Source: an uncultured Clostridia bacterium
GTDB taxonomy: Bacteria > Bacillota > Clostridia > Oscillospirales > Acutalibacteraceae
Assembly (NCBI GenBank): GCA_946182865.1
Contig: CAMHAV010000008.1
Location: 1 to 38,220, forward strand
Reading direction: 5' to 3'
Length of the DNA: 38,220 nt
Shown here: piece by piece, positions 1,461 to 17,596 of the stretch
How positions within the stretch are numbered: the stretch's first letter is position 1
Layout of the letters: each line of letters starts with the position of its first letter
Program-made: the position numbers and the translations under genes
Notes under the pieces: generated by a model
Seen by the model: the letters and a program-made list of their open reading frames with translations, nothing else
Told to the model about the DNA's origin: nothing
Databases searched by the model: none

Positions 1461-1617
1461 TACTAATTGTCGATTGAAAGTAGACAAACGATTTGCGAGG
1501 ATATTTTGTGACCTGCAAGAAAGAGGACGACGGCAGGCTGGCGCTTGCCTAGGACGATGACGCAGCAGGGCGCAAAATAGACCGCAAAGAATGTCTACTT
1601 TTGATTAACAATTAGTA
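1461..1617. repeat. 157-bp palindromic element, copy 1 (MITE-like or structured RNA), TACTAATTGTC...ACAATTAGTA, flanked by TTA/TTA
   Basis: Gapless alignment with 2447..2603 (139/157 identical by hand); complementary ends; direct TTA on both sides. Confidence 0.9.
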
Positions 1618-1647
1618 TTAGTGTGAAATATCGAAAAGATTAGCAAA

Positions 1648-1700
1648 CAAAAGGGCTGTCCCACTGGAATTCATTTCCTTATGGGACTGCCCTTTGTCTG
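1648..1700 (-). terminator. Intrinsic terminator-like hairpin AAAGGGCTGTCCCA...TGGGACTGCCCTTT
   Basis: 14-bp stem with one mismatch, just downstream of the minus-strand CDS ending at 1706. Confidence 0.65.
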
Positions 1701-1705
1701 TAAGA

Positions 1706-2344
1706 TTATACAAAAGACATCTTCTCTCCGTCTACATACAACGTATAATCCTCGTCCATATCGGTGACGAAGCCATAGTAAAACGGTATCGTATCGGGAT
1801 AATTGACAATCTCAAAATTGGTGTTGCGGTTGTCAATCACATTCGCCGCCACATCGGATATATTGCCCTCGGCGCTGTGCGTGACAATGACAAAGCAATC
1901 GTGGGTGCCGGGAACATACAGCCGCTCCGCCATACAGTAACGAAGCGTCGCCACCTCCCGTTTGCGGTTGTAGACGGTTTCCAGCTTCCACCTGCCGTCC
2001 TTCTTCTGAGGCAATACGTGGGTGGTCAGCCGATTGTCTCCCGTCTGCACCACCACCAGCGCACAGTTATTGTATTCGTCGATCTCCATGATCTCGCCGG
2101 TATGGTTGTAGCGGAAGGAGCTTTGCGGCGTGGCAAATCCCATGAGTAAATTTTCCACTGGCAGGAGGCAAAGCACGACCGTCACCGCGAGGAACACCCC
2201 GCCCGACCAGACCCACACGTCGCTGTCGTTTCTGACAAAACGGCGGCGGCGGGAGGTCACATCCTCGCGCGAATAGGTCAGCATCACAAACGCCACCGCC
2301 GCTGCCGCCAGCGCCAATATCACACGTATCGCAGTGTAAAGCAT
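1706..2344 (-). CDS. Hypothetical protein with two N-terminal TM segments
   Basis: Long ORF; hydrophobic segments MLYTAIRVILALAAAAVAFVML and VWSGGVFLAVTVVLCLLPV. Confidence 0.7.
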   Translation of the reverse strand: MLYTAIRVILALAAAAVAFVMLTYSREDVTSRRRRFVRNDSDVWVWSGGVFLAVTVVLCLLPVENLLMGFATPQSSFRYNHTGEIMEIDEYNNCALVVVQTGDNRLTTHVLPQKKDGRWKLETVYNRKREVATLRYCMAERLYVPGTHDCFVIVTHSAEGNISDVAANVIDNRNTNFEIVNYPDTIPFYYGFVTDMDEDYTLYVDGEKMSFV

Positions 2345-2446
2345 TTCAATCTATCTCCCGTCAATGGTTTCCTGCCTCTATTTTACCATTTCAGCGGAGA
2401 CAATGCAAGACGCGCGACCAATTTTATAGAATCAATCTCCTGTTTA

Positions 2447-2603
2447 TACTAATTGTCGATTGAAAGTAGACAAATGATTTGCGAGGATATTTCGTGTCAT
2501 GCGAGGATGACGACAACGGCGGGCTGGCGCCCGCCTAGGAGGAAGACGAAGCAGGGCGCGAAATAGACCGCAAAGCATGTCTACTTTTGATTGACAATTA
2601 GTA
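2447..2603. repeat. 157-bp palindromic element, copy 2
   Basis: Same length as copy 1 with no indels; flanked by TTA (2444-2446) and TTA (2604-2606); abuts the stop codon of the DUF4349 CDS. Confidence 0.9.
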
Positions 2604-6453: not shown

Positions 6454-7045
6454 TGCGAATGCCGACTTCGCCTGCCGTTTCCGCCGCCTGTGCATAATCC
6501 GCCAAATGTGCTGCTCCCAGCACATAGCTGTCACTGTCGATGTCAATGCCGTACACCGTGATTCCCGACTGCCCCGCGTATTCGTTGAACTGCGCCACCC
6601 AGTCGGGAATGTTTTTCTCCCGGACAAACGACAGGTTTTTCAGAGAAAAGACAATGCCGTTGTTCCTGATAATCTCTTCCAGTGCCGACCGGAATTCCTC
6701 CGCGTCGTCCTTCCAGTCCAGTTCACAAAGATAATCCGCCTCTATGGCAGCGTCCACCGCCGCGATCAATTGCAGCCACGGCGCCGCTTCCTCGTTGTAT
6801 TCCAGACCGCGTTCATCATAGGCTTCTTCATGCGCTTCACAATAGGCCTTGGTATCCGCAAGGCACTCCGTCATCTTTGCCTCTACCGCCTTGTCTCCAT
6901 GGCAGAGAACCGAGAAACTAAACAGCAACGCTTCTCCAAACGTCTTGGGACTTTCGGGTTCTTCCGGCGCGGGGACGCTATCCAAATGAAACAAATCAAT
7001 CAGCCGCATTTTATCATCACTTTCCCATGCTTGTTTTTTCTTCAT
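6434..7045 (-). CDS. Hypothetical acidic cytosolic protein
   Basis: ORF track; start set at MKKKQAWES (MRLIDLF at 7009 also possible); convergent 20-bp overlap with the DUF3789-like ORF. Confidence 0.65.
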   Translation of the reverse strand: MKKKQAWESDDKMRLIDLFHLDSVPAPEEPESPKTFGEALLFSFSVLCHGDKAVEAKMTECLADTKAYCEAHEEAYDERGLEYNEEAAPWLQLIAAVDAAIEADYLCELDWKDDAEEFRSALEEIIRNNGIVFSLKNLSFVREKNIPDWVAQFNEYAGQSGITVYGIDIDSDSYVLGAAHLADYAQAAETAGEVGIRITSRPS

Positions 7046-13952: not shown

Positions 13953-14039
13953 GCGGATATGGCGGAATTGGCAGACGCGCTAGATTCAGGTTCTAGTGAA
14001 TGCAAGTTCATGCAGGTTCAAGTCCTGTTATCCGCACCA
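13953..14039 (+). tRNA. tRNA-Leu(CAG), CCA encoded
   Basis: Acceptor GCGGATA/TATCCGC, anticodon arm CTAGA-ttCAGgt-TCTAG, long variable arm, GGTTCAAGTCC. Confidence 0.93.
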
Positions 14040-14044
14040 ATTCT

Positions 14045-14133
14045 GGAGGGGTGTCCGAGCGGTTTAAGGAGCTAGTCTTGAAAACTAGTGATAGGGTGAC
14101 CTACCAAGGGTTCGAATCCCTTCCCCTCCGCCA
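14045..14133 (+). tRNA. tRNA-Ser(TGA), CCA encoded
   Basis: Acceptor GGAGGGG/CCCCTCC, anticodon arm CTAGT-cTTGAAa-ACTAG, long variable arm, GGTTCGAATCC. Confidence 0.93.
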
Positions 14134-14182
14134 CACCTCTCTTTTTTTGTTTTATATATGTTATGTTGTTGTCAACACATTC

Positions 14183-14275
14183 GGAGAAGTACTCAAGTGG
14201 TGACGAGGCTCCCCTGCTAAGGGAGTAGGCTGGCTAAACACTGGCGCGAGGGTTCAAATCCCTCCTTCTCCGCCA
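14183..14275 (+). tRNA. tRNA-Ser(GCT), CCA encoded
   Basis: Acceptor GGAGAAG/CTTCTCC, anticodon arm CTCCC-ctGCTaa-GGGAG, long variable arm, GGTTCAAATCC. Confidence 0.93.
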
Positions 14276-14329
14276 AAGCGAAAATCCCATCGACGAACGT
14301 CGATGGGATTTTTACTTTGTATTATTCAT
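14273..14329 (+). repeat. 57-bp direct repeat copy 1 (tRNA CCA plus terminator hairpin)
   Basis: 51/57 identical to 16734..16790 by hand alignment, same length. Confidence 0.85.
14280..14316 (+). terminator. Terminator of the tRNA cluster
   Basis: AAAATCCCATCGACgaacGTCGATGGGATTTTT. Confidence 0.9.
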
Positions 14330-14620
14330 TTGTTTTTATTGCCTGAATCCGGTATGATAGAGACAGACGGAACGGCTTTTTTCTGCACTGACTTTTTCCA
14401 TAATACTGTCATTTTCCCTTTTTGAAGAAACACAAAAGCTTCTTGTTTCTTGCTTTTGTTTATAACCATTTAAAAAAAAGATAATTTACAAAAAAATTAC
14501 AATATCATCGCTCAATAATCACCTATTTACGGACATCTTTTGGTATCATTGGAACATGGAACGGTTTTGCTGTGTGATAGCAGAGGATAATACTTTTCTT
14601 TATTAAGGAGGCATTTTGAT

Positions 14621-16516
14621 ATGAGTAATAAGGAACTATGCAGAATTTAATCAGTCATTTTCTGCTTAAAAATACAGTATGCTTGCGTGTTTCAGAAAGT
14701 GAAATGTATCAATTATTTCTGCATAGTTCCTAAGTATAAGAAAACCCACAATTCAAAATGGGAATCGGGACATTCTGCCTCCCCCCGAGACAGACATAAT
14801 GTTTCGTCCCGACCGGGGCTGCTTTTCCGGCTGGGCTGTGCCGTGTTGGCGATGACGGTGGCAGTATGCGCGGCTCCGCTGCTGCGCCGCTTTTTTGAGG
14901 CGCAATTACCGATGGTGCACGCGGCGGGTCAAACTATAAATGTATACGGAACATGGGATTCTAATGACAAAATGGAGCCGGGTCAAACCTCGTTAGATGT
15001 AGATAAGATATATATGAATGCCGGTAGTGTCATTAGAATCCGTAACGGTAAGACCATAAATATGGTTAATCAACAAACAATAGGATCAGCTGACCTTAGC
15101 GTGATTTATCTTTATTCCAATGCCAATTTGCATTTGTATGGTACGATGACAGGTTCGTGTGATGAATTGAATATAACTTCAGATAGTTCTCATGTTTATG
15201 TTTATCTCAATGAAGGCGCTGTCTTTGACGTTACCTTTAACGATGATACATTCGGAAGTCGTCAGTGCTACATAGAATGTATCGGCTACAATGTCGGCAG
15301 CAACCTAACGGATAGCGAAACCTACCCCGATGTCAACTTTGATATATCAACAGATATCCAAGTGTTGAACGTGAGTGCAGACCCCAATGTGGCTGTCATA
15401 CAAGGTGAATCAGTCGGTAAATTCTGTAATGTTGAAGATACGACCTATCGCTACACTGCCAGCCCTGTCGAGGGATTCAGCCGACTTATCTGGTTAAAAG
15501 GCGGTGCCAATGGCTTCATACTGAACCCCGAAACACAAACCCAATTCCAAAACACAACCCAAATCAAAAACAGAGTGGATTTCTCCTGCAAAGAGAACGC
15601 GAAAGGCCAGTTGTACGCCAAATACATTCCCGACGACGCGTGGACATGGGACTTGGAAGAGGGGAAGGCAACCTATACAGTTACCAACATCGATCCCGCT
15701 GTTGCGGGCGGAACAACAGAAGTGACCTACACCGACGATACGTTGGAATCTGTTGTTAACGAAGAGACCGGCAAGACCATCTATACAGCTTCTGTTACTG
15801 TTGACGGAGAACCCATCACCGGTACTTACGAGGTTGATAACGACAACCAAGGCACCGGCGAAGGTGGCACCGGCGAAGGCGGTACTGGCGAGGGTGGCAC
15901 CGGCGAAGGCGGTACTGGCGAGGGTGGCACCGGCGAAGGCGGCACCGGCGAGGGTGGCACCGGCGAAGGCGGCACCGGCGAGGGTGGCACCGGCGAGGGT
16001 GGCACCGGCGAGGGTGGCACCGGCGAGGGTGGCACCAATGGTGATCATTCAAAAGACTACGCTTTTATCACCGGCAGCGTATGGAGCTGGACAAAGGGTA
16101 CTGCTGCCGGAATGCCGGTGATCCTCAAAAACACGGTGGGAGATGACACCACTACCTTCAGCAAGCTGCAAAAGGTATTTGTAGACGGAACCCTTCTCAC
16201 ACAGGACGTTCACTACAAAGCAGTTCCCGGCAGCATTAAGATCACGCTCCAGCCAAGTTACCTGAAAAACCTCAGCGCAGGCACACACACGCTTACCGTC
16301 GAACTGAAGGACGCCACACTGGAACATACGTTCACCATTGCGGAGTCCGGCGGCAGTGATCCGGGTAAGGGCAGTGATTCACCGAAAACCGGAGAAAGCA
16401 ATTTCAAGCTCTTTTTGTCCGCATGGCTCTTCATGGCTTCCTCCGCAATGATCGTCATGTTGCTCTTCCAGAAGAAAAAGAAAAATACTCCCACAGGTAG
16501 ACGCAGTCAATTCTAA
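14621..16516 (+). CDS. Sortase-type surface protein with GTGEG repeats, 5' end interrupted by a MITE-like element (currently open from GTG 14687)
   Basis: SD taaggagg plus ATG at 14621; signal-peptide-like [24 protein letters not shown]2-like Ig-type domain; SPKTGE-hydrophobic-KKKK C-terminus. One in-frame TAA at 14648-14650 lies inside the inserted element. Confidence 0.8.
14632..14730. mobile_element. 99-bp MITE-like insertion with 14-bp perfect terminal inverted repeats and TAA/TAA flanks
   Basis: GGAACTATGCAGAA...TTCTGCATAGTTCC; TAA at 14629-14631 and 14731-14733; excision restores the ORF. Confidence 0.85.
15851..16030 (+). repeat. 12 x 15-bp in-frame tandem repeat encoding GTGEG
   Basis: Units ggcaccggcga(a/g)gg(t/c) or ggtactggcgagggt, 180 bp total. 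Confidence 0.97.
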
Positions 16517-16733: not shown

Positions 16734-16790
16734 CCAAAGCGAAAAACCTGTCGACAAACGTCGATGGGATTTTCGCTTTGTATTATTCAT
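16734..16790 (+). repeat. 57-bp direct repeat copy 2 (includes hairpin and the stop codon of the convergent permease)
   Basis: CCAAAGCGAAAAACCTGTCGACAAACGTCGATGGGATTTTCGCTTTGTATTATTCAT. Confidence 0.85.
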
Positions 16791-17596
16791 CCGTTTCCCG
16801 TACTCTTATAAAATCTCAGGCTGAACCGCCAGAATGAGTAAGCGAGAAGGTACAGCGTAACGCCGACAACAGGTGAAATGTACATCAGCCATTCCGGGTA
16901 AGCCGCCATATCCGCCTTGCGCAAAAAGAACTGCGCCGGAAAGTAATTGACAAACGCAAACGGCACCACAAAAATCAGGATGGACTGAATGAACCGGTTG
17001 TATATACTCAGCGGATAGATGGCAAACTTGCGCATATTCCAGTAGAAGATTTCCTTCAGGCTGCCTGTTTCCACCACGTAAAAGCTGATGGACGAAAAGA
17101 ACAGGAATATCGCCCCCTGTATCAGTACGCCGCTGATAACGGCAATGATATAATACACCGCCATTGCCGGATTCCATTGAATCCCCACACGGCTGGCCGA
17201 AATCACAAACAGGACGATGCCGAGCGTGCCGTGTCCCAACGCCGCCAGCCAGTCCGCTCCGCAAAGCACAAGCTGGGTCAGCAATCCTCTCGGACGCAGC
17301 ATCACACGGTCAAAGTCACCGTGCCTGATCCAGTCGGAAAAATCCCTCAGCGCCATAAAGAACACAATGAATATGCCGTAGGTGATGAAAATCAGGCTGA
17401 AAAGAAACAACAGTTCATCGATGTTCCAGTTGTTGATGGTGTCAAATTTCAGCAGAGCAAGGTACATGGCGATAATGCCGCCCGCTTCACGCAGAAACAC
17501 GGCAAACGTCGCCACGATCGCGTCCAGTTTGTATTGAAAGCGGCTTTTCAGCCCCGACTTTGCATAGGCAAAGAAAAGTGACAGAATATCTCTCAT
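16787..17596 (-). CDS. ABC-2 type permease (COG3694-like)
   Basis: Multi-TM, RHGDFDRVMLRPRGLLTQLV motif; paired with a second permease and two ATPases. Confidence 0.88.
   Translation of the reverse strand: MRDILSLFFAYAKSGLKSRFQYKLDAIVATFAVFLREAGGIIAMYLALLKFDTINNWNIDELLFLFSLIFITYGIFIVFFMALRDFSDWIRHGDFDRVMLRPRGLLTQLVLCGADWLAALGHGTLGIVLFVISASRVGIQWNPAMAVYYIIAVISGVLIQGAIFLFFSSISFYVVETGSLKEIFYWNMRKFAIYPLSIYNRFIQSILIFVVPFAFVNYFPAQFFLRKADMAAYPEWLMYISPVVGVTLYLLAYSFWRFSLRFYKSTGNG

Follow-up and report, generated by a model that had tools for sequence, protein, structure and literature searches.

The window, by which we mean the whole 38,220-nt stretch of DNA analysed here, contains two copies of a 157-bp element that we call family A. 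Copy 1 lies at positions 1461–1617 on the plus strand (ends TACTAATTGTC.../...AATTAGTA), starts five bases past the stop codon of a VTT-domain (DedA-like) gene, and has the sequence TTA on either side as a target-site duplication (1458–1460 and 1618–1620). Copy 2 lies at 2447–2603, also on the plus strand, and is defined by its sequence, its fold and an empty site in a sister species (G012); sequence and empty site likewise mark its left TTA (2444–2446), while the right TTA (2604–2606) doubles as the stop codon (TAA, minus strand) of the DUF4349 gene that the element abuts. At the centre of each copy is a conserved 52-nt module, or core, on the plus strand, at 1515–1566 in copy 1 (74.8 and 70.3 bits with R1 and R2, our two covariance models of the core, the first of which is 52 positions long) and at 2501–2552 in copy 2 (81.4 and 71.3 bits). 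In copy 1 the module is a GGCAGGC-TGGC-GCTTGCC hairpin atop single Watson-Crick pairs that alternate with tandem G.A steps. Further out, GCGAGGA (plus strand, 1495–1501) pairs with GACCGC (plus strand, 1580–1585) in an internal loop made of a bulged A followed by a G.A/A.G step, and the same two motifs are found in copy 2 at 2481–2487 and 2566–2571, again on the plus strand.

The two copies align without gaps across 157 bp with 18 differences (89% identity over 163 bp when the flanking TTA is included), and each folds end to end, with energies of -69.9 and -82.5 kcal/mol (z ~ -12); no shuffled sequence folds equally well. A sequence-only reading of this locus had described two gap-free 157-bp hairpins with 18 differences, and alignment and folding bear this out at the coordinates given above. 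The differences that it listed as preserving pairing, and the tandem G.A loops that it placed at element positions 40-41/120-121, 63-64/96-97 and 66-67/93-94, are consistent with the computed folds, and its change from A.C to G.A at 57/103 is as described. The TTA direct repeats flanking both copies were missing from that reading.

Several other features of the window were recorded. Three consecutive tRNA genes of 84–90 nt occupy 13953–14272. A second repeated hairpin, CAAAGCGAAAA..TTTTCGCTTTG with 46-nt arms, occurs at 14273–14335 and 16734–16796, a pair that is both direct and inverted and flanks about 2.4 kb; a similar hairpin adjoins an element at another locus (L009). Within an open reading frame without a Pfam match (14687–16516) there is a 15-bp tandem repeat at 15820–16059, and a 26-bp tandem array runs from 38057 up to the contig end at 38220.

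The two window hairpins are copies of a mobile element (MITE). The sister species has no element at the copy 2 site, only a single TTA, and family A elements are flanked by a 3-bp TNA duplication in 79 of 97 instances, a longer one never being seen. About twenty full or partial copies are present in the genome of the window; in a survey of the genus, matches were obtained in 11 of the 18 genomes searched, with a maximum of 53 in one genome (G012), and a further genome (G015) gave 68 + 67 end matches. The criteria for a MITE are met in size (157 bp without a transposase gene; other forms are 156, 177 and 277 bp), in terminal inverted repeats (TACTAATTGTC/GACAATTAGTA, plus other ends) and in target-site duplication (TNA for family A, TA for families B and C). 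Family A fails the criterion of a 2-bp TA duplication for IS630-derived elements, duplicating 3-bp TNA instead. No autonomous family A element was found by paired terminal repeats or near DDE_Tnp_1 genes, the only long pair of family A ends in the paired-end search being the two window copies themselves, and a blastn search of phage and plasmid collections gave no match to the element. At four loci of the same genome (L009, L010, L011 and L020) we observed solo palindromes of about 33 bp that consist of family A ends only (TACTAATTGTCTACTTTCAATCGACAATTAGTA) and are apparently core-less elements.

A second set of elements, family B, has TATAGCAATCC ends and a 2-bp TA duplication in 110 of 112 instances; here, as in the family A count, each element was possibly counted on both strands. 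The ends and arms of family B are unrelated to those of family A and the centre alone is common to both, and family B elements sit inserted within family A elements. The genome of the window also contains an open reading frame for the C-terminal part of an IS630-type transposase (DDE_3), directly followed by the family B terminal repeat. By the criterion of ends shared with an autonomous element, family B thus matches IS630, whereas no partner was found for family A. This terminal-repeat match identifies an IS630-family transposase gene in the same genome as the donor for family B, movement by it being inferred. In a genome of another genus, an IS630-type element bears a CTAGTACTCTGTAA end. 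Most of the genomes are draft assemblies from metagenomes, and hairpins are poorly assembled. Family B copies in G012 (e.g. L088-L107, L063, L067 and L071) have lost one arm from the core onward; in contig coordinates the missing arm is invariably the right-hand one, regardless of how the element is oriented, and many contigs end at elements. We rejected these arm deletions as biology and take them as an assembly artefact of long hairpins. In family B elements such as L015, an RBS-like AAAGGAGG and an ATG precede an open frame that passes through the core to the terminal repeat.

The core is not confined to families A and B, being found within elements whose terminal repeats are of at least 15 unrelated kinds. 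With the first, 52-position covariance model it was found in 35 of 300 genomes of the family and 23 of 394 of the order, and with the second in 56 of 391 genomes of the class and 14 of 399 of the phylum; these per-clade rates vary with the choice of genomes and with stricter filtering. An exact search for the centre pattern in GTDB representatives matched rumen Clostridia and also recovered elements with other ends, and the contexts of the core in the wider searches were again terminal-repeat elements. The single-module form is usually about 156–160 bp long, with ends that include TATAGTCGAT, TATAGTCATTCCACC, TATAGCAATCC, TACTAATCTCA, TTAGACCTCCTCGGAAAC and CTAGTACTCTGTAA; module elements of 277 bp have GACTGATTGGCGG ends, and elements of about 300 bp, with TACCCTCAGTGGACAAGGGGCAA or TAGCATCGG ends, carry two modules in inverted orientation. 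Pairwise comparison of 29 elements gives a mean identity of 0.70 for the core and 0.37 for the arms, and many families also have the outer internal loop GCGAGGA/GACCGC. Matches that were weak or coding (L306, which is an acidic repeat, as well as L410 and L384) were not counted as real. No match to the element or to the wider loci was obtained in Rfam 15 at either gathering or permissive thresholds. Of the checks that the sequence-only reading had proposed, the comparison with Rfam matched no family, and the building of a covariance model with a search for relatives recovered the core widely and with covariation.

A few individual loci deserve mention. One 277-bp class module element (L310, G358:C31) is immediately followed by the RNase P RNA gene (rnpB), and a viral contig (L441) contains a module element at 6793–6828 with CTAGTGGTGCATCC ends, unlike those of family A. 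An extra small hairpin just 5' of the core, CCGCTGACGGCTTGCCGTCAGC, is common to a family A element (L066) and a family B element (L080), and copies in G015 (e.g. L045) have TAGCTGTCGACTCGTCGACAGC at this site. The extra hairpin common to A and B elements hints at core exchange between families, which we raise only as a possibility.

The core consists of a 7-bp apical stem with a 4-nt loop and, below it, what we term a G.A zipper, in which single Watson-Crick pairs alternate with tandem sheared-type G.A/A.G steps. In a MAFFT alignment of 41 diverse cores (A4), 96% of cells pair and 12 of 13 pairs have two-sided changes; the covariation is 0.665, compared with 0.185 after shuffling and at most 0.10 in the slid control. 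A further alignment (A5) gives 0.726 against 0.185 shuffled. A5, like A3, was fitted to the model, so that its counts lean towards the structure, whereas the A4 alignment is independent of the model. RNAalifold recovered the same helices without being supplied with the structure. Across the 111 distinct cores of A5, 12 of the 13 Watson-Crick pairs change on both sides, each of the isolated pairs 8/44, 11/41 and 14/38 is found as every one of the four Watson-Crick combinations, and about 87–96% of copies retain the G.A and A.G cells that separate these pairs. Of the twelve strongest APC-corrected mutual-information signals from these cores, eleven fall on predicted pairs, and the twelfth is the non-canonical 7/45, which co-varies between C.A (86 of 108) and A.G (18 of 108); position 16/36 is similar (C.A 47, A.G 25, A.T 16). 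In RNA, A.G and C.A are isosteric as trans Hoogsteen/sugar-edge pairs, so that the second can stand in for the first. The core therefore shows covariation of the structured-RNA type, beyond that of shuffled and slid controls; that it is expressed as RNA is inferred. A LoaP-type antitermination hairpin was considered and rejected, the target in that case being a small UNCG hairpin (PMC12691694), unlike the present structure.

Two alternative explanations of the conservation can be judged from these data. The first is that the elements are ordinary palindromic MITEs in which pairing is kept by mutation alone, through arm-to-arm template switching (quasipalindrome correction). The outer arms are indeed long near-palindromes of unconstrained sequence. 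However, such correction removes mismatches, yet the tandem G.A steps persist at the frequencies given above in unrelated elements; co-variation is seen at isolated pairs with mismatches on either side and at a non-canonical pair; and the process predicts no asymmetry of G.T over A.C (see below). We consider this explanation very unlikely. The second is that the conserved sequence is coding, as family B, with its AAAGGAGG, start codon and open frame through the module, might suggest; read by eye, this frame is open from ATGATGGTGAGTGCA to the terminal repeat. The same frame contains stops in family A, however, and conservation tracks base pairs rather than codons, which all but excludes a coding role.

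Mismatches in the elements are not distributed equally between the two strands. When the arms beyond the core are read on the core strand, single mismatches with pairs on both sides are G.T in 66 cases and A.C in 15 (38 loci, binomial p = 9e-9, an approximate value as the loci include some related pairs), and G.A plus A.G outnumber C.T plus T.C by 34 to 11. Within the core there are 63 G.T and 19 A.C, as against 132 and 105 when the letters within each pair are shuffled. Since neutral, strand-symmetric change would give equal G.T and A.C, we conclude that one strand is selected as the folded strand. This bias does not prove RNA, because G.T and G.A are also better tolerated in DNA hairpins. 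The folded strand is probably RNA, this being the simplest reading, although there are no transcript data and single-stranded DNA is not excluded. The rival view is that the fold acts as single-stranded DNA, a hairpin into which one strand folds during replication or transposition, to be recognised by a protein of the host or of the transposition machinery, in the manner of attC or IS200/IS605. It has in its favour the same tolerance of G.T and G.A in DNA hairpins, with which the strand asymmetry fits, the unbiased orientation of elements relative to genes (see below), expected if transcription is irrelevant, and the inverted arrangement of the module in double-module elements. Against it, the TA/TNA target-site duplications and the IS630 link are typical of double-strand DDE transposition, and the C.A/A.G exchange at 7/45 resembles the isostericity known from RNA. 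We regard single-stranded DNA as unlikely.

In the light of these results the interpretation offered by the sequence-only reading, either a mobile structured RNA or a MITE whose hairpin is constrained, holds in both halves. The MITE half is upheld by target-site duplication, copy number, the empty site and nested insertions. The constrained-hairpin half is upheld by a tip module that covaries strongly, conserves its G.A steps and is common to elements with unrelated ends, and the pattern seen in two copies becomes overwhelming once many are aligned. The inner 52 nt are under the strongest constraint; further out, the arms keep their pairing and the bias of G.T over A.C, with sequence free to vary. 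Its proposal of selection on an RNA or single-stranded DNA fold is supported as far as one folded strand is concerned, the choice between the two remaining unsettled.

Whom the core serves can be approached through the orientation of insertions. For 131 elements, judged with simple ORF calls, the upstream gene runs with the element in 70 cases and against it in 61, and convergent gene pairs around elements outnumber divergent ones by 37 to 18. If the core acted on host transcripts in a fixed way, insertions should favour one orientation; as no such bias is seen, the core probably serves the element. The presence of the same module in elements with at least 15 unrelated ends likewise points to a passenger domain that serves the element and not a given host gene. 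Benefit to the element is therefore the better guess, although the function of the core has not been shown. In the ~300-bp class, the inverted modules would present one sense module in either direction. The opposing view is that the element is a host-beneficial regulatory element, a terminator or a hairpin affecting mRNA stability, that selection has spread and retained at its insertion sites. Both window copies lie directly after stop codons and convergent gene pairs are in excess, as this view would have it. On the other hand, orientation is unbiased, avoidance of promoters alone also yields an excess of convergent genes, and the site of copy 2 is empty in the sister species. We find this view very unlikely.

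The explanation that we favour, and consider likely overall, is that these are MITEs mobilised in trans that carry a folded passenger module. Mobility, the common module, conservation of structure and strand asymmetry are shown. The remaining steps of the mechanism are proposed. The elements would be non-autonomous and transposase-dependent, moved in trans via their terminal repeats, and built around a 52-nt module that behaves as a passenger domain; selection would act on its fold as a single strand, most likely of RNA. This RNA would arise by read-through and may recruit a widespread host RNA-binding or transcription factor, which in turn may make insertions tolerable or stabilise the transcript; no protein partner or phenotype is known. 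A bolder reading, which we would neither press nor dismiss, is that the G.A zipper hairpin represents a new class of structured RNA, an interchangeable passenger of many unrelated non-autonomous transposons of Clostridia, acting on a widespread host factor to aid survival of the element.

Bacterial MITEs are usually viewed as shrunken insertion sequences that bring nothing of their own. In the present case a single folded core has been retained or picked up by elements whose ends differ and, for at least some of them, whose transposases differ too, and because different-ended elements keep the same co-varying core, a selected function inside such 'junk' repeats is indicated. The alternation of single Watson-Crick pairs and tandem G.A steps would be a new RNA structural motif, missing from Rfam. 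Which protein binds the core, and whether the core helps the element to move or to be tolerated, are questions that this raises; function is testable, given that near-identical copies, species rich in copies and a covariance model are available.

The present elements can be compared with several known systems. Correia/NEMIS and ERIC are MITEs of 100–200 bp whose transcripts form long stem-loops able to alter mRNA fate (PMC2229807); the present elements are alike in size and in their long stem-loops, but hosts and ends differ, and no module resembling the G.A zipper is mentioned in the relevant sections of that work (PMC2229807). RUP of S. pneumoniae is a 107-bp MITE for which mobilisation by IS630-Spn1 was inferred from shared terminal repeats and TA targets (PMC2229807). 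Family B, with its IS630 ends and TA targets, is the same case, whereas an internal module common to other element families is not reported for RUP in the relevant sections (PMC2229807). In covariation and in the way it behaves in searches, the module resembles a curated RNA family such as those of Rfam 15, but none of these matches the element or the wider loci. The closest case is BOX of Streptococcus, small modular MITE-like repeats that fold as RNA (PMC3049150); in S. suis, the same boxB modules occur in two kinds of BOX element whose end modules differ (boxA/C and boxE/F), so that a modular MITE is already known (PMC3049150). BOX, however, was described in streptococci, whereas here one 52-nt tandem-G.A module spans many terminal-repeat families across the class and beyond. 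What is new is the absence of the module from Rfam, the strength of its covariation, its G.A zipper structure and its breadth.
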